Origin: Candidatus Halobonum tyrrellensis G22
GTDB lineage: Archaea; Halobacteriota; Halobacteria; Halobacteriales; Haloferacaceae
Assembly (NCBI RefSeq): GCF_000495475.1
Contig: NZ_ASGZ01000043.1
Coordinates: 1-35,391, forward strand
Reading direction: 5' to 3'
DNA length: 35,391 nucleotides
Notes under the pieces: model-generated
The model's database searches: none
What the model was told of the DNA's origin: nothing
What the model saw: the letters and a program-made list of their open reading frames with translations, nothing else
Made by a program: the position numbers and the translations under genes
Shown here: piece by piece, positions 3,538 to 17,931 of the stretch
How the letters are laid out: each line of letters starts with the position of its first letter
Position numbering within the stretch: the first letter of the stretch is position 1

Positions 3538-5304
3538 TCAGTCGTCGGCCTCCAGCGGTGCGCCCTCCGCGGAGGTGGGCGCGGGGCTCTCGCCGTCGTC
3601 GAACGGGTACCACGACTGCTTGCCGTCGTACAGACAGGGGTCCTCGTACCCCTCGACCTCCTCGGGTTCCGCGAGTTCGACGATGGCGCCCTGCCCGGTG
3701 GCGTCGACCCACTCGCGGAACGTCTGCCCCTCCTCGCGGAGCGCGGCGTACGCCCCCACGAGGTTCCGGATCAGCCCGGGCACCTCGTCGGCGGGGACGC
3801 GCTGGCGCGCCCACTCGATGAACGACGGCTCCTCGCCGACGCCGCCGCCGACGCCCACGTCGAGCGCCTCGACCATCTCGTCGTTCTTCTGTGCGCGCAT
3901 CCCCTGTAACCCGATGTCGGCGGTCATCGCCTGCCCGCAGTCGGCCGTACAGCCCGAGTAGTGGATCTTGATCCGGTCGACGTCGTCGGGCAACTCGACG
4001 TTGTCCCGCAGCCACGGCAGCATGCGGGCCATCCGCGCCTTCGTCTCCGTGAGCGCGAGCGAGCAGAACTCCGTGCCCGTACACGCCATCGCCCCCTGGA
4101 CGAACGGGTTGGAGTCCGGCGAGTACGTCTCCAAGAACGGCTCGTCGAGCAGGGCGTCCAGCCGGTCGTCGGGCACGTCCATGATCAGCGGGTTCTGCCG
4201 GCGGGTGAGCCGAACCTCGCCCGAGCCGTACTCGTCGGCCAGGTCCGCGAGTTCGAGCACCTTCCCCGCCGCGAGCCGACCCACGGGAATCGAGAGACCG
4301 ACGTAGTTGGTCCCGTCCGCCTGGTCGTAGACGCCGACGTGGTCGTGGGCGCCGTACTCGCTCGACCGCCCCGCGTTGTACGTGTACTCCCGGCGGAAGT
4401 CGGTGCCCGCGTGCTCGGGGTCGAACGAGAGCCGCTCGACCATCGCCTCGCGTATCTCCTCGACCCCCGTCTCGTCGACGAAGAAGCGGGCGCGGTTCTT
4501 CGAGCGGTTCTGGCGGTTCCCCTCCCGGTGGTAGTACTCCACGAACGTCCGGACCGTCTCGTACGCCTGGTCGGGCGTGACGAACAGGTCGAGCGACCGC
4601 GCCCTGCGGGGCTCGCGGCCACCCAGCCCGCCGCCCACGCGCACGTTGAACCCCCTCACGTCCTCGCCGTCGATCAGCCGGTGGGCGGGTTCGAGTCCCA
4701 CGTCGTTGATCGAGTCCTGCGCACAGCCCTGCCGGCAGCCCGACACCGAGATGTTGAACTTCCGCGGCATGTTCGCGAGGTCGTCGTCGCCGCGGATCCC
4801 CTCCTGGATGTCGTCCAAGAGGCCGCGGCTCTCGACGTACTCGTCGGCCTTCCCCGCGACCGGACAGCCGGAGATGTTCCGCATCGTGTCCCCGCCCGCC
4901 GACCGCGAGGACACCCCTACCGACTCCAGTTTCTCCCAGATCGCCGGGATGTCCTCCAGTTTGAGCCAGTGGAGTTGGACCGACTGTCGCGTCGTGAAGT
5001 CGATCCAGGCGTCGCCGAACTCCGGGTTGTCCACCGGGCCGCTGGCGTACTCGTCGGCCACCTCGCCGATGGCGCGCAGCTGGCCGGGTTCGAGCAGCCC
5101 CCCGCAGTTGGTGAGCCGCATCATGAAGTACGACTCCTGCCCCGAGCGGTGGTGGAAGACGCCCCAGAACTTGAACCGCGAGAACCACTTCTCGCGCTCG
5201 TCGTCCGGGATCGACTCCCAGCCCCGCTCGGCGAACTCCTCGATCTTCTCGCGCACCTCGTCGCCGTACAGTTCCTCCTTCCAGCCCTCTTTCTTGTGTA
5301 CCAT
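3538..5304 (-). CDS. nirA: Ferredoxin-dependent nitrite reductase
   Basis: This 588-residue siroheme [4Fe-4S] enzyme reduces nitrite to ammonium with six electrons from ferredoxin. The cluster/siroheme cysteines are C408-x5-C414 (ACTGTEFC) and C452-x3-C456 (SGCTADC), the nitrite/sulfite reductase signature. Two ferrodoxin-like half domains are visible: WIDFTTRQSVQLHWL and GCPVAGK in the first, GSGEVRLTRRQNPLI in the second. Nitrite rather than sulfite reductase is called because of the nasA and narK neighbours. I chose the ATG at 5304 (MVHKKEGWKEELYGDEVREK); a GTG five codons upstream would add MVTSI and is less likely. It is the first gene of the leftward unit with the DUF6360-like gene, the small ORF and nasA. 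Confidence 0.92.
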   Translation of the reverse strand: MVHKKEGWKEELYGDEVREKIEEFAERGWESIPDDEREKWFSRFKFWGVFHHRSGQESYFMMRLTNCGGLLEPGQLRAIGEVADEYASGPVDNPEFGDAWIDFTTRQSVQLHWLKLEDIPAIWEKLESVGVSSRSAGGDTMRNISGCPVAGKADEYVESRGLLDDIQEGIRGDDDLANMPRKFNISVSGCRQGCAQDSINDVGLEPAHRLIDGEDVRGFNVRVGGGLGGREPRRARSLDLFVTPDQAYETVRTFVEYYHREGNRQNRSKNRARFFVDETGVEEIREAMVERLSFDPEHAGTDFRREYTYNAGRSSEYGAHDHVGVYDQADGTNYVGLSIPVGRLAAGKVLELADLADEYGSGEVRLTRRQNPLIMDVPDDRLDALLDEPFLETYSPDSNPFVQGAMACTGTEFCSLALTETKARMARMLPWLRDNVELPDDVDRIKIHYSGCTADCGQAMTADIGLQGMRAQKNDEMVEALDVGVGGGVGEEPSFIEWARQRVPADEVPGLIRNLVGAYAALREEGQTFREWVDATGQGAIVELAEPEEVEGYEDPCLYDGKQSWYPFDDGESPAPTSAEGAPLEADD

Positions 5305-5373
5305 GATCGAAGTCACCACGTGATCCGCGCCGGGTTCCGTGTACTGCCTTCGGGAGCTACCAGACGAACGACC

Positions 5374-5383
5374 ACCAATAAGT
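5374..5383 (-). promoter_or_regulatory. Candidate TATA box for nirA (proximal)
   Basis: CACTTATTGG on the minus strand would place a transcript start near 5353 and a leader of about 50 nt before the nirA ATG. A second candidate, GTATATATTC at 5424-5433, would give a leader of about 100 nt. The sequence alone does not choose between them. Confidence 0.35.
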
Positions 5384-5423
5384 GTTATCTGCGGATAGAT
5401 CGGGTGGGAAATGAGGTCTAGGG

Positions 5424-5433
5424 AGAATATATA
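5424..5433 (-). promoter_or_regulatory. Candidate TATA box for nirA (distal)
   Basis: GTATATATTC on the minus strand is the most TATA-like stretch in front of nirA. If used, transcription would start near 5402, and the inverted repeats at 5441-5500 would lie just upstream of the box, where archaeal activators bind. Confidence 0.35.
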
Positions 5434-5440
5434 CAGTATT

Positions 5441-5500
5441 CCGAGAAGGTATCGGGTACTGGAACTTCTCGGCGGTATTCCCCGCCATATCGGAAGTTCC
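5441..5500. repeat. Overlapping inverted repeats (alternative stems) upstream of nirA
   Basis: Two perfect 8-bp inverted repeats share a middle arm. CCGAGAAG (5441-5448) pairs with CTTCTCGG (5465-5472). GGAACTTC (5461-5468) pairs with GAAGTTCC (5493-5500), and the second stem encloses GGCGG (5471-5475)/CCGCC (5482-5486). The two stems cannot form at once. They may be operator half-sites at the DNA level or a switch in a transcript. No gene overlaps them. Confidence 0.5.
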
Positions 5501-5859
5501 TAGCCGGCTTCGGCCGACCGGACTAGCCGGATCGGAATCGACCCCCGCCGGTATTTACGGGCGCCGGGGCGGCCGACCGGAACCGGTAGCTTCACCGTCA
5601 CGTTCGCGGCGAGGGACGACGGACGGGCGGTCCGCGGCCCGCTCCGACCCGCGCGGGCGAGTCGCCGACCCGCGCCGACGACGGGGTCGGCCGACGCCGA
5701 AACCGCGCGCACGCGGCGGGTTTCGACCGGATCGAGCCCCGGACGCCCCCGGCGCGGTTCGGGCGGCGAGCGATCGGCCGTCGGTTACCGACTGCGACCG
5801 ATCACCGCGCGAACGGTTGCCGACCGTGTGGTTGTCCGTCCACTCGGTGGGAGATATAC

Positions 5860-7505: not shown

Positions 7506-8684
7506 ATGGCCGAGTGGCGCGAACGGGTCGGCGGGCGCGCCGCGGTGTGGCTCGCCGGGGCGGCCGCGCTGGTGTCGGTGCTCGTCGGCATCGCCAACAT
7601 ATCCGGCGGCGCGCCACAGGGGCCGCTCGTCGAGGTGGTGCCGGCGGCGGTCTCCCGGACCGCGGGCTTTACGGGCACGCTCACGGGCTTTCTGCTCCTG
7701 TTGTCGGCGTACGGGCTCAACCGGAGCTACCGGAGCGCGTGGTACTCGACGGTGGTGTTGCTCCCGCTGTCGGCCGCCCAGGGGCTACTCCAGACGAGCG
7801 AACTCTCCTACCCGCTGGTGGGGCTGTCGGTCGTCGCGTGGCCCGTCGTCGCGTTCAACCGCCGGCTGTTCACCCGCGAGGTGGAGCTCACCGTCACCCA
7901 GTGGGCCGCGCTGGCCGCGCTGGTCGGCTCGCTCGGCTACAGCACCGCCGGGGCGTACGCGCTCCGCGACCAGTTCGGCAGCGTCGAGACGCTGACCGAC
8001 GCGGTCTACTTCTCGGTCGTCACCGCCTCCACCGTCGGCTACGGCGACGTCACGCCGACGAGTCAGCTGGCGAAGTGGTTCACCATGTCGGCGCTCGTGT
8101 TGAACGTCGCCAGCTTCGCGGTCGCGCTCGGGGTGCTGTTCACGCCCGCGATAGAGGCCCGCCTCACCAACGCGCTCGGACGCATGACAGAGAACAACCT
8201 CGACATCCTCGAACGACACGTCCTCGTGCTCGGGCACGGGGAGCTGACCGAATCGCTGATCGAAGAACTCGCCGACGCGGGCGTCGACTTCCTGCTGGTC
8301 ACGCCCGACGAGGCGGTCGCGCGCGCGCTCCGCGACCGGGGGGTCGACGTGCTGACCGCCGACCCCTCCGGGGAGGAGCCGCTGACGCGCGCGAAGATCA
8401 CCGAGGCGCGGGCGGTCGTCGCCGCCACCAACGACGACGCCCAGGACGCGCTCGCGATCCTCACCGCCCGACAGCTCAACCCGGAGGTGACCATCGTCGC
8501 CGCCGCGACCGACCGCGAGAACGAGAACAAGCTGAAACGGGCGGGCGCGGACACCGTCATCTCCCCCGCGAGGATCGGCGGCCACCTCCTCGTGGAGTCG
8601 GCGCTCGACCGCGGCGACTCCGAGGCTGTCGCCCGCGAGATACTCGACGACGAGGACGGCGCCGGCGGGGACGAACGCGGCTGA
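7506..8684 (+). CDS. Potassium channel with RCK (TrkA-N) domain
   Basis: In this 392-residue membrane protein the first ~220 residues carry several hydrophobic segments. There are four or so before the pore, more than the two of MthK-type channels. The K+ selectivity filter TVGYGD is T176-D181, followed by a last transmembrane helix. From H238 a Rossmann-type RCK domain begins (HVLVLGHGELTESL), with LLVTPDEAVARALRDRGVDVLTADP and ARAVVAATNDDAQDALAI typical of TrkA-N. It probably passes K+ across the cell membrane under control of a nucleotide or ion bound by RCK, a key function in salt-in haloarchaea. No RCK_C domain is evident at the short acidic tail. It has its own promoter and is convergent with the HPP-UspA gene. 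Confidence 0.88.
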   Translation: MAEWRERVGGRAAVWLAGAAALVSVLVGIANISGGAPQGPLVEVVPAAVSRTAGFTGTLTGFLLLLSAYGLNRSYRSAWYSTVVLLPLSAAQGLLQTSELSYPLVGLSVVAWPVVAFNRRLFTREVELTVTQWAALAALVGSLGYSTAGAYALRDQFGSVETLTDAVYFSVVTASTVGYGDVTPTSQLAKWFTMSALVLNVASFAVALGVLFTPAIEARLTNALGRMTENNLDILERHVLVLGHGELTESLIEELADAGVDFLLVTPDEAVARALRDRGVDVLTADPSGEEPLTRAKITEARAVVAATNDDAQDALAILTARQLNPEVTIVAAATDRENENKLKRAGADTVISPARIGGHLLVESALDRGDSEAVAREILDDEDGAGGDERG

Positions 8685-8755
8685 GTCGCCGCGCCGGCCG
8701 ACCCCGGGACGGCGACCCGCCCGGGGGGTCGCGAGTCGCCGCTCGCCGCGCGCCG

Positions 8756-10261
8756 CTACCGGGGTGTGCCGCGGTCGACGACCGCCACGTCACACTCCAG
8801 GTCGCGGAGTTTCTCGAACGTCGGCGGGGCGACCGCACGCGAGGCGGTCGAGCGGTCCCGCGAGGAGCCGATCAGGACGAGGTCGTACGCGTCGGCGTTC
8901 GCCTCGATGAAGTCGAGCACGTCCGCGCGGGCGACCCGGGTCTCGATCGGGCCGTCGACCGCCTCGACGACGTTCGAGAGGGTGTTCTCCGCCGGCCGGC
9001 GCTCAACCTCGCGGTCGATGCAGGTGCAGACCGAGACGCTGCCCGACCGGCCCGCCAGCCGGGTGGCGAAGTCGACCATCGCGTGTGCGGAGTTGCCCGG
9101 GCGGGCGACCGGGACGAGCACCCGCCGCCACCGCTGTCGGTCCGACACCGACTTGAACGCGATCGCGTCGGTGGGGTCGCGGAACACCGTCCGGACGAAC
9201 TCCGAGAGCAGACCGCGGTCCTCCTCGTAGGGGGTGACGATCAGGTCGCAGTTGGACGCGCGGGCCGTCTCGAGCGTGGTGCGCGCGGGCTGACCGCTCG
9301 CGACCACCACCTCACAGGGCACCCCGACCCGGGTGCGGATCGTCGCCGCGTACTCCTCGAGGCGGCCGGCCGACTCCGCCGCCGCCCGGCGGGTGGTCTC
9401 GTCGGCGATCCCGTCGACGTCGTCGGGGAGCGACGAGTCGGCGCGGTCGCTCGGCCCGCCGACGTCGACCGCCGACCGCTCGACTTCGGCGACCTCCTCG
9501 TCGCCGACCACGTCGAGGAGGACGACCTTACCGGCGTCGTGGGCGGCCGCCAGCCGCGCGCCGAACAGCGCGGTCGTGAGTGCGGTGTCGCCGCGCATCG
9601 GCACGAGCACGTGGTCGTCCGCGCGGGTCGTCCCGTAGAGGTAGCGCGCGCGCTGTTCGTAGAACTTCCCGCGCCAGAGCGCGAACGTCGCGGCGACGAA
9701 CGTGCTGCCGACGAAGATGGAGACGACGTACAGCCCCGGTCCCCGCGGGACGACCCCGAACAGGTACGCCTCGCTCCCCTCCGACGCCGCGAGCACGAGC
9801 AGCGCCGACGAGAACGCCGACGGCTCCTCGACGCCGAGCGTCCACGTCACCACGCCCGTCAGGAACAGCGATATCCCGGCGCTCACCGGCGTGACGAGCG
9901 CGAACGCCGACACCGACGGCACCAGCGTCTCCGCGCCGAGCGCGACCAGCCCGCAGGTCGCGCCGGCGGTCAGGCCGACGACGAACCGCACCGGGTCGGA
10001 GTACTTCCCGCCGGGGTCGGCGAACAGCGTGTACGCGCCCGACGCCAGCGGCGGGAACAGCAACACCGGTAGCAGTTCGTCGAACGCGTTCGCCAGTTCC
10101 GTGATGACGACGACGAGCACCGGCAACAGCAGGAGCACCGACAGGTGGAGGAGGTTGTTCGTCTCCTCGACCCAGACCCGGAACTCCGCGGCTTCCCGCC
10201 GCTCGATCCGGCGGACGTACCGGCTCGCCGCGGCGAGTCGGGCGGTCAGCCGATCGAACAC
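8756..10261 (-). CDS. HPP-type membrane protein with two UspA-like domains
   Basis: The first ~200 of 501 residues are membrane-embedded with about five hydrophobic segments and LFPPLASGAYTLFADP (68-83), which resembles the HPP family (some members are nitrite transporters). Residues ~216-345 (DDHVLVPMRGDT...) and ~377-501 (RRVLVPVARPGNS..., LVLIGSSRDRSTASR) look like two universal stress protein domains; the second keeps a Gly-Ser-rich nucleotide-binding loop variant. The domain order suggests transport or sensing regulated by an adenine nucleotide; this is inference. The GTG start lies 3 nt after the stop of the upstream nucleoside phosphorylase, so the two form one unit. Confidence 0.75.
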   Translation of the reverse strand: MFDRLTARLAAASRYVRRIERREAAEFRVWVEETNNLLHLSVLLLLPVLVVVITELANAFDELLPVLLFPPLASGAYTLFADPGGKYSDPVRFVVGLTAGATCGLVALGAETLVPSVSAFALVTPVSAGISLFLTGVVTWTLGVEEPSAFSSALLVLAASEGSEAYLFGVVPRGPGLYVVSIFVGSTFVAATFALWRGKFYEQRARYLYGTTRADDHVLVPMRGDTALTTALFGARLAAAHDAGKVVLLDVVGDEEVAEVERSAVDVGGPSDRADSSLPDDVDGIADETTRRAAAESAGRLEEYAATIRTRVGVPCEVVVASGQPARTTLETARASNCDLIVTPYEEDRGLLSEFVRTVFRDPTDAIAFKSVSDRQRWRRVLVPVARPGNSAHAMVDFATRLAGRSGSVSVCTCIDREVERRPAENTLSNVVEAVDGPIETRVARADVLDFIEANADAYDLVLIGSSRDRSTASRAVAPPTFEKLRDLECDVAVVDRGTPR

Positions 10262-10264
10262 GGG

Positions 10265-10990
10265 CTACAGCCGGGTCACCGTATCGAGGCTGATCCGGAT
10301 CGCGCGACCGACGTTGTTCTTCGCCTTCTCGGGGAGTTCCTCCTCGGAGTCGGCGCCCTTCTGGGTCCCCTCGACGAGGTTGCCGTCGACGGTGCAGATG
10401 GCGCCCGCGTCCATCCCCCGCCGGCGCGCGAGCGAGAACACCGTCGCCGCCTCCATCTCGATGGCGAGTAGGTTCGCCGCCTCCCAGTCGGCGACGTACG
10501 CGTCGGTCTCGTTGTAGAACGCGTCGTCGGAGACGATCGGGCCGACGTGGACCTCCTCGTCGCGGTCCTCGGCGGCGTCGACCAGCGCGCTCAGCGTCCC
10601 GTAGTCGGGCGTCGCGGGGTACGTCGCCGACTCGTAGCGCTTGCTCGTCCCCTCCTCTTTGGCCGCGCCGGTGGCGACGACCATGTCGCCGACCTCGATG
10701 TCCGGCTGGAGCGCGCCGCAGGTGCCGACGCGGATCACCGTCTCGACGCCGACGTTGTGGAGTTCCTCGACGGCGATGGCGGCGGAGGGACAGCCGATCC
10801 CGGTCGAACAGATCGTGAGGTCGACCCCCTCGTAGCTGGCGTTGACGATGCGGTACTCGCGGTTCTCCGAGACGACCTCCGCGTCGTCACACTGCTCGGC
10901 GATGCGGTCGACGCGGTCGGGGTTGCCCGGCACGAGCGCGACTTCGTTCACGTCGCCCTCGTCGACGAGCAGGTGGGGCTGGTTCGCCAT
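10265..10990 (-). CDS. Nucleoside phosphorylase (uridine/purine type)
   Basis: This 241-residue protein belongs to the PNP/UDP phosphorylase family and performs phosphorolysis of nucleosides to base and (deoxy)ribose 1-phosphate in the cytoplasm. LVPGNPDRV (19-27) is the phosphate/N-terminal motif, IRVGTCGAL (86-94) the phosphate-binding loop with R87 and T90, and AIEMEAA (176-182) contributes the ribose-binding Met/Glu. Uridine phosphorylase is the closest description, but substrate cannot be read from the sequence. It leads a two-gene unit with the HPP-UspA gene. The ATG is supported by a TATA-like box 26 nt upstream. DeoC at 34447 would act downstream of deoxyribose 1-phosphate after isomerisation, but is not linked. 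Confidence 0.88.
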   Translation of the reverse strand: MANQPHLLVDEGDVNEVALVPGNPDRVDRIAEQCDDAEVVSENREYRIVNASYEGVDLTICSTGIGCPSAAIAVEELHNVGVETVIRVGTCGALQPDIEVGDMVVATGAAKEEGTSKRYESATYPATPDYGTLSALVDAAEDRDEEVHVGPIVSDDAFYNETDAYVADWEAANLLAIEMEAATVFSLARRRGMDAGAICTVDGNLVEGTQKGADSEEELPEKAKNNVGRAIRISLDTVTRL

Positions 10991-11097: not shown

Positions 11098-13815
11098 TCA
11101 CTCCCCCTCGTCGGTGTACACGTCGTCGAGGTCGACCGCGGGGTCGCGCGTCCCCCGGCCGGCGTCGACGCCGGGCGACCGGCTCTCGTCGGGGGCGGCC
11201 CGCCGCGCGCGCTCCATCAGCCGCTCGTGGACGTCGACCGTCGGCGCCCCCTCGGCGGGTTCGACCTGCGCGTAGCTCCCGTCGGCGCCCATCCGCCACC
11301 GCCGGCGGTTGTCCGCGAGCATCGTCTCCAGCACCGCCCGCAGCTCCGCGCGGGCGGTGGGCTCCTCGACGGGCGCGACCGCCTCCACCCGCCGGTCGAG
11401 GTTGCGGGTCATCCAGTCGGCCGACCCCACGTAGTAGGCGGGGTCGCCGCCGTCGCCGCCGTCACTGCCGTCGTCGGCGCCGGGCCACACCTCCGCCCCC
11501 GCGCCGTTGCCGAAGTAGTACACCCGCGAGTGTTCGAGGAACGTCCCGACGACGCTGTGGACGCGGACGGTCTCCGAGAGCCCCTCGACGCCGGGGCGGA
11601 GCCGACAGATCCCGCGGACGACCAGGTCGATGTCGACGCCCGCGCGGGCGGCCTCGTACAGTTCGCGGACGATAGCGGGGTCTTCGAGCGCGTTCATCTT
11701 GGCGACGATCCGGCCGTCGCCGCCCTCGCGGGCGACGTCGGCCTCCCTGCGAACGTGCTCGGTGACGCCCTCGCGGAGGTTCTCGGGCGCGACGAGCAGT
11801 TTGTCGTAGCGGCGCTGGCGGGCGTGGCTGGTGAAGGAGTTGAACAGTTTCACCACGTCGCCGCCGACGGTCGGGTCGGCGGTGAACAGCCCGAGGTCCT
11901 CGTACGACTTGGCGGTCTCGGAGTGGTAGTTGCCCGTGCCGACGTGGGCGTACGTCCGCACCTCGTCGGCGTCGCCCTCCTCGCGGACGACGAGCGCCAC
12001 CTTCGAGTGGGTCTTCAGCCCGATGGTGCCGTACGCGACGTGGATCCCCTCCTCTTCGAGTCGCTTGACCCACCGGAGGTTGTTCTCCTCGTCGAACCGC
12101 GCCTTCAGTTCGACCATCACCGCCACCTGCTTGCCGTTCTTGGCGGCGGCGATGAGACTCTGGACCACCTTCGAGTCGGGCGCGGTGCGGTAGATGGCCA
12201 CCTTGATCGCCAGCGTGTCGGGGTCGCGCGCGGCCGCGTCGAGGAACGTCTGGACCGTGTTGGCGAACGAGTGGTACGGGTGGTGGACGAGCACGTCGCC
12301 GCGTTTCACCTCGTCGAACAGGTCGCCCGGCCGGTCGGCGTCGAGGCCGGCGAACCGGGGGTGGTTCTGGGGCGACCACGGCTCCGACCGGAGGTCCGGC
12401 CGGTCGAGGTCGAGCACCGCGTCGAACCCGTCGAGCGCCAGCGGCTCCGGCCGGTCGAACGTCTCGCGTTCGGTCACGTCGAGGTTGTCGACGAGTAGCT
12501 TCCGCACCGCCTCGGGCGTGTCGTCGGCCACCTCCAGCCGCACGACCGTCGCGAACCGGCGCTGGCGGAGCACGTCCTCGATCATCTCGATCAGCCCCTC
12601 GGCGACGTCCTCGTTGCGGCGCACCTCGGCGTTCCGCGTCACCCGGAACGTCGAACTGTCGAGCACCGCCACGTCGGGGAACAGCAGGTCGAGGTTCGCC
12701 TCGATCAGCCGCTCGATGGGGAGAAACCGCGCCGTCGCGTCCGCCCCGTCGGCTCCTGCTCCGTCGCCGTCCGACGCGCCCGCGGTCACGTCGGCGTCCG
12801 CGCCGCCGTCGGACTCGCCGCCGCCGTCACGGACCCCGTCGACACGGATCAGCCGCGGCCGGTTCTGAGGCACCTTGATCCGCGAGAAGCGCCGCTCGCC
12901 CGCCTCGTCGCGGGTCAACACCGCGACCGAGAGGCTGAGGTTCGAGATGAACGGGAACGGGTGGGCGGGGTCGAACGTCAGCGGCGTCAGCGTCGGCAGC
13001 ACCGACCGCTCGAAGTGCTCGCGGAGCGCCGCCCGCTCGCCGTCGTCGAGGTCGGTCCACTCGACGAGGTCGACCCCCGCCGCCGAGAGCGCGGGTTCGA
13101 CCAGTTCCCGGTAGCAGCGCGACTGCCGGTCGAGGATGTCGCGCGCCTCCCCGAGCACGTCGGTCAACTGCTCGCCGGGCGTCCGCCCGTCGACGGTCCG
13201 CTCGGTGACGCCCGCGTCGAGCTGCTGTTTCAGCCCGCCGACGCGCTTGCGGAAGAACTCGTCCATGTTCGTCGTCACGATGTCGAGAAACCGGAGCCGG
13301 GTGAGGAGCGGCACCCGGTCGTCCTCCGCCTCGTGGAGCACGCGCCGCTGGAAGGAGAGTTCGCTCAGCTCCCGCGAGAGGTAGTAGCGCGCGTCGTCGA
13401 GGTCCGGCGACTCCACCGGCTCCGACAGCGGTTCGGCCGCGGTCGGCGGCGTCCGCGCCCCGAACCGCCCCCACTCGACCGCCGGGCGGTCGTCGCCCGC
13501 GTACGGCCACGGACGGGCGAGCGGGTCCGCGTCGGCCACCAGCGTCTCGGCGGCCGGGAACTCGGCGGCGGGACCGCCCTCGTCGTCGGCTTCGTCCGTC
13601 CCGTTCGCCTCGCTCCCCCCGTTCGTCCCGGCGGGCTCGCCGCCGGTCGCGGTCCCGGTGTCGTCCGCCGCCGCCTCGTCCTCGTCGGTCGGTCGCTCCC
13701 GCCGGTCGGCGTCGACGTTCGCGCCGCCGCCGGCCGCCGCGTGCGGGGGGTCGGTCGCGTCGCTCTCGCCGTCGGTCGACTGCTCGGCCGTCGGGTCGGG
13801 GTCCTCGCCGCTCAT
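11098..13815 (-). CDS. ppk1: Polyphosphate kinase 1
   Basis: This 905-residue enzyme reversibly transfers the gamma-phosphate of ATP to polyphosphate chains. YLSRELSELSFQRRVL (about 146-161) opens the N domain and LRFLDIVTTNMDEFF follows. The two PLD-like catalytic domains carry the autophosphorylated histidine H603 (KTHSK) and the second essential histidine H762 (EHSR), 159 residues apart, about as in E. coli (435/592). Bacterial Ppk1 is about 690 residues. The excess is an acidic disordered N-terminal extension of about 140 residues and a Gly/Asp/Ala insert at about 325-362. It sits 13 nt downstream of the metallophosphatase gene in one transcript. The ATG at 13815 is the farthest upstream start; a later start cannot be excluded because the extension is low complexity. 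Confidence 0.93.
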   Translation of the reverse strand: MSGEDPDPTAEQSTDGESDATDPPHAAAGGGANVDADRRERPTDEDEAAADDTGTATGGEPAGTNGGSEANGTDEADDEGGPAAEFPAAETLVADADPLARPWPYAGDDRPAVEWGRFGARTPPTAAEPLSEPVESPDLDDARYYLSRELSELSFQRRVLHEAEDDRVPLLTRLRFLDIVTTNMDEFFRKRVGGLKQQLDAGVTERTVDGRTPGEQLTDVLGEARDILDRQSRCYRELVEPALSAAGVDLVEWTDLDDGERAALREHFERSVLPTLTPLTFDPAHPFPFISNLSLSVAVLTRDEAGERRFSRIKVPQNRPRLIRVDGVRDGGGESDGGADADVTAGASDGDGAGADGADATARFLPIERLIEANLDLLFPDVAVLDSSTFRVTRNAEVRRNEDVAEGLIEMIEDVLRQRRFATVVRLEVADDTPEAVRKLLVDNLDVTERETFDRPEPLALDGFDAVLDLDRPDLRSEPWSPQNHPRFAGLDADRPGDLFDEVKRGDVLVHHPYHSFANTVQTFLDAAARDPDTLAIKVAIYRTAPDSKVVQSLIAAAKNGKQVAVMVELKARFDEENNLRWVKRLEEEGIHVAYGTIGLKTHSKVALVVREEGDADEVRTYAHVGTGNYHSETAKSYEDLGLFTADPTVGGDVVKLFNSFTSHARQRRYDKLLVAPENLREGVTEHVRREADVAREGGDGRIVAKMNALEDPAIVRELYEAARAGVDIDLVVRGICRLRPGVEGLSETVRVHSVVGTFLEHSRVYYFGNGAGAEVWPGADDGSDGGDGGDPAYYVGSADWMTRNLDRRVEAVAPVEEPTARAELRAVLETMLADNRRRWRMGADGSYAQVEPAEGAPTVDVHERLMERARRAAPDESRSPGVDAGRGTRDPAVDLDDVYTDEGE

Positions 13816-13828
13816 CGGGTCGGGACCG

Positions 13829-14581
13829 TCACCGGGTGGGGCCGACGCCCTCGGCGCGGGCGGACTCGGCGTCAGAAAAGGGCGGCCGGAGCACCTTCTC
13901 GTCGGCGCGGTCGCCGTCGACCGCGGCGGGCACGGAGACGAACGCGTCGGCGTACCAGTCGTAGGCGGTCAGGTCGCCGCCGTAGACGCAGCCCGTGTCG
14001 AGACCGACCGCGAACGGCCGGTCGACCGGCCGCGCGAGCACGGTGTGGCCGAAGAACACGCGGTGGGGGCCGTCGTACCGCTCCCACCAGTAGGGCCGGT
14101 CGCCGTAGCTCCCGCCGGGGACGAGCGACCGGGCGTTCTGGAGGTCGTCGACCGAGTGCTCCGCGAGCGGCTTGCGCGGGTCGACCCCGCCGTGGACCAC
14201 GAGCGCGCCCGGGCGGTCGTCGACGCCCGGCCACGACACCGCGACCGGACAGCCCTCGATCCACGCGAGTTGGTCGTCGCTCAGACCGGGCAGGCGCTTC
14301 TCGCCGCGGATCAGTTTCTCCTCGTTGTTCCCGCGGACCGAGACGGCGTTGGGCGCGTTCCGGACGCGTTCGACCACGCTCCGGCTGTCGGGTCCCTTCC
14401 GCACCAGGTCGCCGACGAACACGACGAGGTCGTCGTCGGTGACGCCGAGTTCGTCGAGCAGGCGGTCGAGCGCGTCCGGACAGCCGTGGACGTCGCCGAC
14501 CACGTAGATGCGCTGCCAGTCGTCCGGGTCGATGCGCCGGTGAAACGACTCGATCTCCGGTGCGAACCGCGGGGCGGTCAT
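13829..14581 (-). CDS. PPP-family metallophosphatase (ApaH/PrpE-like), ppk1 partner
   Basis: This 250-residue calcineurin-like phosphoesterase shows GDVHG (D30, H32), GDLVRKGP (D58), RGNNEEKL (N85), VVHGG (H130) and FFGHT (H179), the metal-ligand set of PPP phosphatases such as diadenosine tetraphosphatase and Ser/Thr phosphatases. The usual GNHE box reads GNNE, so the general-acid histidine is Asn86; this may change activity. It is cytoplasmic with no signal peptide. It is the first gene of a unit with ppk1 13 nt downstream, suggesting a role in turnover of polyphosphate, dinucleoside polyphosphates or phosphoproteins; the substrate is not readable. The ATG at 14581 is chosen because a TATA-like box lies 28 nt upstream, although the frame is open further. 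Confidence 0.85.
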   Translation of the reverse strand: MTAPRFAPEIESFHRRIDPDDWQRIYVVGDVHGCPDALDRLLDELGVTDDDLVVFVGDLVRKGPDSRSVVERVRNAPNAVSVRGNNEEKLIRGEKRLPGLSDDQLAWIEGCPVAVSWPGVDDRPGALVVHGGVDPRKPLAEHSVDDLQNARSLVPGGSYGDRPYWWERYDGPHRVFFGHTVLARPVDRPFAVGLDTGCVYGGDLTAYDWYADAFVSVPAAVDGDRADEKVLRPPFSDAESARAEGVGPTR

Positions 14582-14827: not shown

Positions 14828-15721
14828 ATGAGCGCGCTCGACGAGGACACGCTGGGGAAGTACCGCGAGGCGGGCGAGATCCTGACCACCGTCGTCGAGG
14901 AGGGGCGGGAGATGGTCGAACCGGGCGCGACCCACCTCGAAGTCGCCGAACACATCGAAGCGCGCATCCGCGAGGAGGGCGGGGGTATCGCGTTCCCCGT
15001 CAACATCAGCGTCGACGAGGAGGCGAGCCACGCGACCGCGGGCCGCGACGACGACACCGAGTTCGGCGACGACCTGGTCTGTCTCGACGTGGGCGTCCAC
15101 GTCGACGGCTACATCGCCGACGCCGCGGTCACCGTCGACCTGGCGGGCGAGGCGGAACTGGTCGAGGCCGCCGAGGAGGCGTTAGACGCCGCGGTGGCGG
15201 CGGCCGGGCCCGGCGTCCCCGTCGGCGAGATCGGCGCCGAGATCGAGAGCGTGATCGAGGCGTACGACTACACGCCCATCTACAACCTCTCGGGGCACGG
15301 CGTCGAACGCTACGACGCCCACACGGGGCCGAACATCCCCAACCGCGGCGTGGACCGCTCGGTCGAACTCCAGCCGGGACAGGTGGTCGCGATCGAACCG
15401 TTCGCGACCGACGGCCGGGGGAAGGTCGGCGAGGGGAGCCACGAACAGATCTACGAGCGGACGGGCGACCGCTCGGTCCGCAACCGGACGGCGCGGCAGG
15501 TGCTCGAAGAGATCGAGGAGTTCGACGGCCTGCCGTTCGCGGCGCGGTGGCTCTCGTCGTCGCGGGCGGAGATGGCGCTCCGGCGGCTGAAGACCAACGG
15601 CGTGATCAAGGGGTACCCGGTGCTCAAAGAGGAGGACGGGCGCCTCGTGAGCCAGGCGGAACACACGATGGTCGTCACCGACGACGGCGTGGAACTGACG
15701 ACCGAGGGGCTGTTCGGGTAG
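14828..15721 (+). CDS. map: Methionine aminopeptidase, type II (archaeal)
   Basis: This 297-residue enzyme removes N-terminal methionine from nascent proteins. All five metal ligands of the pita-bread fold are present: D87 (LDVGVH), D98 (IADAAVT), H157 (LSGHGV), E190 (AIEPFAT) and E278 (QAEHTM), with H68 as the additional active-site histidine. The roughly 60-residue insertion that separates type II from type I (about 199-262, including RRLKTNGVIKGYPVL) is present. Length equals that of archaeal homologues. The ATG at 14828 is preferred over frame-open upstream codons because of the TATA-like box 27 nt before it. It diverges from the phosphatase-ppk1 unit across 246 bp. Confidence 0.95.
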   Translation: MSALDEDTLGKYREAGEILTTVVEEGREMVEPGATHLEVAEHIEARIREEGGGIAFPVNISVDEEASHATAGRDDDTEFGDDLVCLDVGVHVDGYIADAAVTVDLAGEAELVEAAEEALDAAVAAAGPGVPVGEIGAEIESVIEAYDYTPIYNLSGHGVERYDAHTGPNIPNRGVDRSVELQPGQVVAIEPFATDGRGKVGEGSHEQIYERTGDRSVRNRTARQVLEEIEEFDGLPFAARWLSSSRAEMALRRLKTNGVIKGYPVLKEEDGRLVSQAEHTMVVTDDGVELTTEGLFG

Positions 15722-15981: not shown

Positions 15982-16182
15982 TTACGCGTTGTTCATCCGC
16001 ATCGCCGATTCGGTCCCGCACTCGTGGCAGGTGACGACGCGGTACGGTTCTCGAGAGAACTCCGCGTTCTTCTCCTTCTCGCTCTCCGTGCGGATTTCGA
16101 CCCGCACGTCGTGATGGGTTTCCCCGTCACAGTGGGGACAGGCTTCCGTGATGCTGTCCGGGTTGGAAGGTTGGGTCGCCAT
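15982..16182 (-). CDS. Small zinc-ribbon protein (DUF7835-like)
   Basis: This 66-residue protein has two CxxC knuckles, C15-x2-C18 (ACPHCDG) and C52-x2-C55 (TCHECG), typical of a zinc beta-ribbon. It ends in MRMNNA. The central RVEIRTESEKEKNAEFSREP is, from memory, conserved in haloarchaeal small zinc-ribbon proteins annotated DUF7835. Function is unknown; such proteins often bind nucleic acid or protein partners. The ATG at 16182 is preferred over a GTG three codons upstream because of the TATA-like box about 30 nt before it. Confidence 0.8.
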   Translation of the reverse strand: MATQPSNPDSITEACPHCDGETHHDVRVEIRTESEKEKNAEFSREPYRVVTCHECGTESAMRMNNA

Positions 16183-16355: not shown

Positions 16356-16901
16356 GTGGACCAGATATACGCCCCCTGGCGGATCGAGTGGGTCGAACGC
16401 GACGACGAGGGCGGTGACGGCTGTCCGTTCTGTACACTACCCGACCGCGGCGACGACCGCGAGGCGCGGATCGTGGCTCGCTCGCCCGAGTCGTTCGTCC
16501 TGCTCAACAACTACCCGTACAACCCCGGCCACGCGATGGTGATCCCCCGGGTCCACGAGTCGGCGTACGAGGCGCTGAGCGACGAGGTCCTCCTCGACCA
16601 CGCGCGGATGAAGCAGCGAACGTTCCGGGCGCTCGACGACGCCATCGGCCCCGACGGCTACAACGCCGGTCTCAACCTCGGCGACGGCGCCGGCGGGTCG
16701 CTCCCCCACCTCCACACCCACGTCGTCCCGCGGTGGGAGGGGGACACCAACTTCATGCCCGTCGTCGGCGACACGAAGGTGATCGTCGAAGCGCTCGAAG
16801 AGACGTTCGACCGGGTGCGCGCGGCGTTCGCCGACTTGGAGGGGGCGACGGTCGACGGCGACGACGACGCGCCGCGGTTCCCCGCCGTCGACGGCGCGTA
16901 G
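16356..16901 (+). CDS. HIT-family nucleotide hydrolase/phosphorylase
   Basis: In this 181-residue histidine-triad protein the catalytic triad is H118-x-H120-x-H122 (HLHTHVVPRW), which handles nucleotide phosphoanhydrides or AMP-lysine-type bonds. C23 and C26 (CPFC) match the zinc-binding N-terminal pair of the Fhit/Ap4A phosphorylase-like branch. LLNNYPYNPGHAMVIPRVH (49-67) is a classical HIT core. The start is GTG at 16356; no good TATA box is seen at -27. It could degrade dinucleoside polyphosphates, as could the PPP phosphatase at 13829, though the genes are not linked. The acidic tail after residue 160 is probably flexible. Confidence 0.9.
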   Translation: MDQIYAPWRIEWVERDDEGGDGCPFCTLPDRGDDREARIVARSPESFVLLNNYPYNPGHAMVIPRVHESAYEALSDEVLLDHARMKQRTFRALDDAIGPDGYNAGLNLGDGAGGSLPHLHTHVVPRWEGDTNFMPVVGDTKVIVEALEETFDRVRAAFADLEGATVDGDDDAPRFPAVDGA

Positions 16902-17022: not shown

Positions 17023-17931
17023 ATGAGTACTCCCGCCGACGAGGAGACGCGCGAGGCGGTCCGGGAGGCCGACCTCACGCCCGCGGAGGCGTTCTCGCTG
17101 CTCGGCAACGAGACGCGCATCGAGGTGTTGCAGGCGCTCCACGAGGCGACCGTCGAGCAGGGAACCGACGACCCGGTGCCGGTGCCCTTCTCGGAGCTGT
17201 ACGACCGGGTCGACCTCGACGACAGCGCCCACTTCAACTACCACCTCAAGCAACTGCTCGACCACTTCGTCCGCAAGACCGACGAGGGGTACGCGTTCCG
17301 CACGCCCGGCTGGAAGGTGGTCCGCTCGGTGTTCGCGGGCACGTTCACCGGCCGGACCGAACTCGGGCCGTTCGAGGCGCCCGGCGACTGCTACGCCTGC
17401 GGCGGCGACCTGGAGGCGCGGTACGCAGACGAGCGACTCGCCATCGCCTGCGTCGACTGCGGCCGGGGTCACGTCGACTACCCGTTCCCGCCGGGCGGGC
17501 TGGACGACCGCACGCCAGCGGAGTTCCTCGACGCGTTCCACCACCACGTCCGCCACCACTACTGTCTCGCCGCCGACGGCGTCTGCCCCGAGTGCATGGG
17601 CCGGATGACGACGACGCTCGACACGTGCACGCGGATTCCGGGCCAGGAGGTGGTCGTCCGGCACGTCTGCAACCGGTGTGACAACCGCCTCGCCTCCGCG
17701 GTCGGGCTGAACCTGCTCGACACCGCGGCGGTGCTCACGTTCCACTCCGAACGCGGGGTCGACCTCACCACCGAACCGTTCTGGACGCACGACTGGTGCG
17801 TGAGCGACGTCCACACCACCGTCCTCCAGACGAACCCCACGACGATCCGCCTCGATCTGCCCTGTGACGGCGACACGCTGTCGGTCACCGTCGACGAGAC
17901 GATGAGCCTGCTGGAGACGGAACGCGCCTGA
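17023..17931 (+). CDS. ArsR-like winged-helix regulator with two Cys4 zinc sites
   Basis: Residues ~18-100 of this 302-residue protein form an ArsR-type winged helix (AFSLLGNETRIEVLQALHEA, then HFNYHLKQLLDHFVRKTDEGY). A long C-terminal region follows with two four-cysteine sets: C123/C126/C143/C146 and C188/C191/C216/C219, each two CxxC knuckles. It resembles haloarchaeal regulators carrying DUF7347/DUF7351-type domains. It is probably a cytoplasmic DNA-binding regulator; zinc is likely structural, though metal or redox sensing is possible. No operon partner is adjacent: the next gene is convergent and its stop is 2 nt away. Targets cannot be inferred. Confidence 0.85.
   Translation: MSTPADEETREAVREADLTPAEAFSLLGNETRIEVLQALHEATVEQGTDDPVPVPFSELYDRVDLDDSAHFNYHLKQLLDHFVRKTDEGYAFRTPGWKVVRSVFAGTFTGRTELGPFEAPGDCYACGGDLEARYADERLAIACVDCGRGHVDYPFPPGGLDDRTPAEFLDAFHHHVRHHYCLAADGVCPECMGRMTTTLDTCTRIPGQEVVVRHVCNRCDNRLASAVGLNLLDTAAVLTFHSERGVDLTTEPFWTHDWCVSDVHTTVLQTNPTTIRLDLPCDGDTLSVTVDETMSLLETERA

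Follow-up and report, generated by a model that had tools for sequence, protein, structure and literature searches.

Haloarchaea are reported to synthesize polyphosphate by means of polyphosphate kinase 1 (PPK1), and the available text of two surveys (PMC6864096, PMC6355812) and of a 2026 study (PMC13318637) recognises no enzyme that releases it; the first of these surveys describes them as being without exopolyphosphatase (PPX) and the known endopolyphosphatases (PMC6864096). The stretch of DNA analysed here (the window), a contig of 35,391 nucleotides from Candidatus Halobonum tyrrellensis G22, raises the question of what a PPP-family phosphatase with an unusual active site does directly upstream of ppk1, and whether it could be such an enzyme. 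The features of the window that bear on this question are the following.

13829..14581, minus strand: ALPH-like PPP-family metallophosphatase, 250 aa, 27.5 kDa (translation, Pfam and AlphaFold model)
14390..14413, minus strand: its GDLVRKGP motif, residues 57-64, with Arg61 replacing the dyad Asp and Lys62 replacing the phosphate-binding Arg
14321..14332, minus strand: its GNNE motif, residues 84-87, with Asn86 where the catalytic His is expected
13816..13828, minus strand: gap of 13 nt between the phosphatase stop codon and the ATG of ppk1
11098..13815, minus strand: ppk1, polyphosphate kinase 1, 905 aa (Pfam and NCBIfam)
10265-10990, minus strand: gene of the PNP_UDP_1 nucleoside phosphorylase superfamily, immediately 3' of ppk1 on the same strand
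14828..15721, plus strand: divergent M24-family metallopeptidase, likely a methionine aminopeptidase
16356-16901, plus strand: HIT-domain protein, two genes away from the phosphatase

Some members of the HIT family are dinucleotide hydrolases. The same neighbourhood holds genes for a zinc-ribbon-like microprotein of 66 aa with CPHC and CHEC and a DUF7835 match (15982-16182, minus strand), and for a regulator-like protein with a DUF7347/DUF7351 and winged-helix match (17023-17931, plus strand).

The phosphatase matches Pfam Metallophos (PF00149) with 61.1 bits against a cut-off of 21.5 and carries the metal ligands D-H, D, N, H and H, as PPP or calcineurin-like metallophosphatases do; its remaining motifs are found in the translation at residues 29-33 (GDVHG), 130-132 (HGG) and 178-180 (GHT), and its AlphaFold model has a pLDDT of 93.6. 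PPK1 is full length, with 735.5 bits for the NCBIfam model poly_P_kin (cut-off 465.85). The first-pass annotation had described intact metal-ligand motifs, an Asn86 in GNNE and a ppk1 gene 13 nt downstream, and translation of the minus strand agrees on each point, with the ppk1 ATG at 13815 following the phosphatase stop codon; it gave no strand, however, and although the motifs it named were correct, it overlooked a second departure, along with the likeness to ApaH-like phosphatases (ALPHs) and the lack of a recognised polyphosphatase in haloarchaea. The canonical signature of PPP protein phosphatases (GDxxDRG plus GNH(E/D)) is replaced at both places, by GDLVRKG and GNNE, so that neither residue of the Asp-His dyad is left.

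That loss argues against a phosphoprotein phosphatase acting, for instance, on PPK1 or on a phosphate-signalling protein, since the dyad is used on poor leaving groups. The PPP fold would suit such an enzyme, and the phosphatase domains of lambda phosphatase and Pnkp are also near in comparisons, but the class that combines Asp-to-neutral with Arg-to-Lys changes is reported for ApaH/ALPH and not for other PPPs in the available text of PMC535813. We regard this as the least likely of the readings considered, and a very improbable one.

In order to determine whether the substitutions are a property of the family, we aligned homologues, as the first-pass annotation had proposed. GNNE was found in 76 of 76 matches of a first set, in which a few genomes are present twice, and Asn86 is therefore not due to chance. 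Leaving out three loci with GDPHG, which still have the D and the H, and two duplicates, these 76 loci gave 71 distinct sequences, 47 of which form the family alignment; three of the 71 are read-through matches that extend past a stop, with the scored columns preceding it. Arg61, Asn85, Asn86 and Glu87 are invariant in all 71 and Lys62 is found in 70; the metal ligands D30, H32, D58, N85, H130 and H179 are present in 71/71, and the basic residues R83, K89 and R151 are conserved together with R61 and K62. Among 98 distinct homologues, 96 carry GNNE, one GNND and one GNTE. With linkage judged inside the fetched stretch, where short loci may undercount linked copies, 84 of them have ppk1 (83 GNNE and 1 GNND; Arg61-Lys62 in 82 and Met-Lys in 2) and 14 do not (13 GNNE and 1 GNTE; Arg-Lys in 10, Arg-Arg in 2 and Thr-Arg in 2). 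Asn86 is present in 84/84 linked copies and in 13/14 of the others, and departures in the active site are concentrated among the unlinked copies (Fisher p 0.003, relatedness ignored). A His at this site in homologues beside ppk1, one of two observations that would have contradicted the initial proposal, occurs in 0 of the 84 distinct copies.

We then analyzed how closely the gene follows ppk1. When 392 genomes from the window's order were searched, 215 had a phosphatase match, the matches falling into a strong class, mostly with E <1e-60, and a second class between 1e-4 and 1e-13; ppk1 was found in 164 of the same genomes. At cut-offs of our choosing (E <= 6.5e-40 for the phosphatase and E <= 1e-30 for ppk1), both genes occur in 161 genomes, the phosphatase alone in 4 (G096, G197, G323 and G344), ppk1 alone in 3 (G145, G185 and G290) and neither in 224, giving a phi of 0.96; the genomes are related, and a Fisher p for this table is not a probability for independent events. 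G290 is counted as having ppk1 alone because its phosphatase match of 1.4e-23 misses the cut-off, and two of the exceptions are poor genomes (G096, 61% complete; G185, 72%).

Physical linkage is similarly strong. Among 126 placed copies, that is, listed phosphatase matches whose genome also had a listed ppk1 match, 116 lie within 3 kb of ppk1, a somewhat flattering figure that omits second copies in several genomes (those of G207, G216, G282, G359 and G354 are without ppk1 in the fetched loci). The adjacent pairs are mostly in tandem with ppk1 downstream (101), the others being convergent (13), divergent (1) or with ppk1 first (1), so that nearness to ppk1 outlasts rearrangement. The idea of an operon with ppk1 as a constant neighbour consequently stands as a conserved association, in tandem in 101 of 116 pairs, but does not extend to the 15 pairs in which the order or direction differs. 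The 10 copies that are not adjacent come from genomes with ppk1 elsewhere. Several of them retain the M24 peptidase-like and HIT-like neighbours of the window, pointing to a phosphatase that stayed in place while ppk1 moved away or was lost; these neighbours were predicted with a simple gene caller, and their names come from similarity at the start of the sequence rather than from profile matches. By the same measure, the M24-like gene flanks the phosphatase in further genomes, including some in which the site has no ppk1, and a HIT-like sequence start also recurs near it.

Gap lengths for many of the first 76 matches were left unused, because an N-terminal extension of ppk1 makes them wrong. 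On the plasmid pHMA411 of Haloarcula marismortui the gap is 4 nt, and on a plasmid of Halomontanus rarus the two genes overlap by 4 nt. The Halomontanus locus (L116) also carries, near the pair, genes for a second metallophosphoesterase, with GNHD, and for the phosphate uptake regulator PhoU (9047-10054 and 10244-10630). Taken together, co-occurrence, adjacency and Asn86 in every linked copy uphold the earlier suggestion of a subfamily coupled to ppk1; that subfamily is genuine, conserved and haloarchaeal. A limited literature search found no published mention of the link.

The plasmid pHsi540 of Haloarcula sinaiiensis (L117) has the order phosphatase-ppk1-phosphatase-CHAD, with phosphatase copies at 4983-5690 and 8645-9364 flanking ppk1. 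CHAD is described as a polyphosphate-binding domain (PMC6537752, available text). As a general companion of the family it was rejected: it scored above cut-off in 1/146 genomes, and the arrangement is therefore rare. The first phosphatase copy, which is the GNND copy, has lost metal ligands (GG for GD, EHT for GHT), and the second, just past ppk1, retains the Asp of motif 2 and has the His in GHK. These copies bear on the possibility that the family is catalytically dead and serves as a polyphosphate-binding or PPK1-regulating protein on a PPP scaffold. The absence of both members of the acid dyad and the strong tie to ppk1 are compatible with such a role, and the conserved R61, K62, R83, K89 and R151 would suit an anion-binding site. 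A binder, however, would be expected to lose some of D30, H32, D58, H130, H179 and N85, none of which varies among the 71 sequences, and the ligand-losing copy of pHsi540 sits beside one that keeps its ligands. Since the six metal ligands are retained in all copies bar this decayed one, a binding or regulatory role is less likely, and we consider it improbable.

To place the family among known phosphatases we compared its fold and motifs. The closest solved structure to the AlphaFold model is 2qjc (Z 28.4, rmsd 2.1 over 206 residues; the next has Z 24.1), which is also the closest profile match (109.5 bits; next 85.2). It is titled a putative diadenosine tetraphosphatase and has the motifs GDLVNKGP and GNHD; from these and from its source organism, which we take to be trypanosomal, it is presumably an ALPH. 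With the ALPHs (T. brucei ALPH1, yeast Ppn2/YNL217W) the haloarchaeal family shares this nearest fold, the loss of the dyad Asp, an LDTG motif and, in motif 2, a Lys where other PPPs have Arg. Judged by the published definition, as far as its text was available (PMC8220851), five of the six ALPH motifs and their spacings are shared. Motifs 1, 3, 4 and 6 agree in 71/71 distinct sequences and motif 5 in all but 2, with spacings of 27-29, 27 and 19 when the definition is taken to count from start to start. Motif 2 does not fit: position 5 is Arg in 71/71, where the ALPH matrices exclude it, and position 6 is Lys in 70/71, so that motif 2 alone fails in 69 of the 71 sequences and motifs 2 and 5 in the other 2. 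The family is therefore ALPH-like and not ALPH under that definition. It further differs from the ALPHs in being archaeal, tied to ppk1 and nearly fixed for GNNE; Asn at this place is not unheard of, since the ALPH matrix permits H, N, W or Q at the GNH position (PMC8220851). The same survey, in its available text, counted an ALPH in 1/285 archaeal proteomes and considered it a possible contaminant (PMC8220851), a near-absence that the Arg of motif 2 may explain.

ApaH, the symmetrical Ap4A hydrolase, has the PPP fold (Z about 23) and has likewise lost the dyad Asp (PMC535813, available text), but, unlike the haloarchaeal family, it retains GNH. A role like that of ApaH or ALPH1, in which dinucleoside polyphosphates (Ap4A, Np4N) or the nucleoside-polyphosphate ends of RNA would be hydrolysed, and the link to ppk1 would reflect shared nucleotide and phosphate stress, draws on ApaH and trypanosomal structures being among the nearest. 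ALPHs and ApaH are also reported to have wide substrate ranges and to decap RNA in vitro (PMC8220851, available text), and the chemistry would be the same as that of a polyphosphatase, so that sequence cannot tell the two apart. Nevertheless, scores against the ApaH equivalog models of NCBIfam fall far below cut-off (NF001204, 75 vs 176 bits; TIGR00668, 42.1 vs 222.85), and the close following of ppk1 would be left unexplained. We find this role unlikely.

The Ppx/GppA exopolyphosphatases share with the family the proposed role, breakdown of polyphosphate beside its kinase, but have an unrelated fold; in the Pfam search the window phosphatase matched only Metallophos families, and PF02541 (Ppx/GppA) was absent. 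LpxH, with the motif GNRD, and YfcE (GNCD) are di-metal phosphoesterases that lack the GNH histidine and are nonetheless active. They belong to other branches of the superfamily, and the YfcE model gives 21.8 bits against a cut-off of 56.25. YfcE naturally has a Cys, Cys74, at the His position (PMC3407115, available text); our literature search returned no paper giving the LpxH motif.

The PPP fold, the kept metal ligands, the fixed Asn86, Arg61 and Lys62, the tie to ppk1 and the absence of PPX in the sampled genomes make one reading the best: the protein is probably a cytosolic di-metal polyphosphatase, hence a phosphoanhydride hydrolase, that serves as the degrading counterpart of PPK1 and belongs to a haloarchaeal PPP subfamily close to the ALPHs. 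The different chemistry that the first-pass annotation had offered for this subfamily is plausible and the likeliest reading. Two Mn2+/Co2+ ions would activate water or hydroxide for attack on a phosphorus of the chain. As the leaving group would itself be phosphate, a protonated His would not be required, nor the Asp that maintains its protonation, and Asn86, Arg61 and Lys62 would fill the vacated space and hold the anionic chain. PPK1 would build polyphosphate and the phosphatase release it, one locus setting the balance.

Published work on related enzymes bears on this mechanism from both sides. In PPP enzymes the second Asp of GDxxDRG is reported to stabilise the protonated catalytic His, and the Arg to coordinate phosphate (PMC535813, available text). 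The GNH His is proposed to act on an alcohol leaving group and to be potentially less important when phosphate leaves; in C. thermocellum Pnkp, changing it to Ala, Asn or Gln lowered hydrolysis of 2',3'-cAMP and raised activity on an activated diester (PMC3407115, available text). An internal phosphate of the chain resembles an activated diester, so that an Asn-containing site would suit it. On the other hand, H97A in zebrafish ADPRibase-Mn strongly reduced phosphoanhydride hydrolysis (PMC3407115); loss of the His is then not harmless to anhydride cleavage as such, and Asn86 would have to be compensated somehow. The incomplete agreement with the ALPH definition, five motifs out of six, also counts against the reading. 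A literature search for general-acid mutants of lambda phosphatase yielded nothing direct. If the mechanism were true, this would be a PPP enzyme that performs anhydride chemistry without the catalytic histidine.

We also asked what else could degrade polyphosphate in these organisms. Among 146 genomes from the window's order, none had a PPX match above cut-off and 5 weak matches fell below it; the control was detected in 10/14. PPK2 is present in 2/146 genomes. SurE, which is counted with NAD kinase as a possible polyphosphate degrader (PMC6355812, available text), is present in 138/146 and so does not track ppk1. The phosphatase is the strongest genomic candidate that we found for the missing haloarchaeal polyphosphate-degrading enzyme, with its activity predicted from sequence.

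Extracts of Haloferax volcanii are reported to degrade polyphosphate by an activity without an assigned gene, which prefers Mn2+ to Co2+, is EDTA-sensitive and likely soluble, is induced by phosphate starvation and releases Pi from polyP3 to polyP100 (PMC13318637, 2026, available text). Yeast Ppn2, an ALPH, acts in the vacuole as an endopolyphosphatase and works with Zn2+ and Co2+ (PMC8220851, available text). The phosphatase gene is present in 15/15 genomes of one genus. We assigned this genus to Haloferax from PCNA, not from strain names: 14 of the genomes have a PCNA with 234 to 246 of 247 residues identical to PDB 3hi8, presumably the H. volcanii protein, and in the fifteenth, G242, PCNA was not read by our script. 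One of these genomes, G311, encodes PPK1s of 83.9 kDa (phosphatase-linked) and 93.2 kDa; the H. volcanii PPKs are published at 83.7 and 93.7 kDa (PMC13318637). More tentatively, the family may represent the missing haloarchaeal polyphosphatase, the Mn2+/Co2+ activity of H. volcanii included, as a PPP subfamily in which Arg, Lys and Asn replace the Asp-His dyad and suit the site to phosphoanhydride chains. Three observations count against that identity and weigh on the main reading as well. The zymogram band of the activity, in a native gel, lies at ~45 kDa, and the Haloferax homologue has a mass of 26.0 kDa, a difference that would require dimerisation or anomalous migration; the activity was read as exo-type (PMC13318637), whereas Ppn2 is endo-type; and a search with yeast-enzyme queries including PPN2 reported eukaryotic polyphosphate enzymes absent (PMC13318637, available text). 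With a gene that tracks ppk1 throughout the 392 genomes, the problem of the missing degrader can be tested on a single gene in a tractable archaeon.

Finally, we examined how far the family extends. In a profile search of a phylum-wide sample of 392 genomes, matches at E <1e-90 were confined to the window's order, and beyond the family no match was stronger than 1e-13. The motifs could be read in 6 of 14 weak-match regions outside the family and gave no reading in 8; of the six, five are canonical PPPs with GDYVD and GNHE, and the sixth is another kind of metallophosphatase, with GNHD. Matches outside the haloarchaea in a plasmid collection were 25-41% identical, several of them annotated as Pnkp or metallophosphoesterase, and a pattern scan of genome contigs, whose patterns were overly specific, returned 6 loci, all haloarchaeal. 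Virus-borne copies were considered and rejected, as none of the 22 stretches of viral contigs that matched the family alignment encodes a relative. Within the haloarchaea, two paralogues away from ppk1 carry GDLVTRGP (L139, 3190-3879, and L145, 2973-3662, both on the minus strand), one of them, L145, with GNTE, and judging from these motifs they appear to form a second branch, in which the active site of the family varies in another way.
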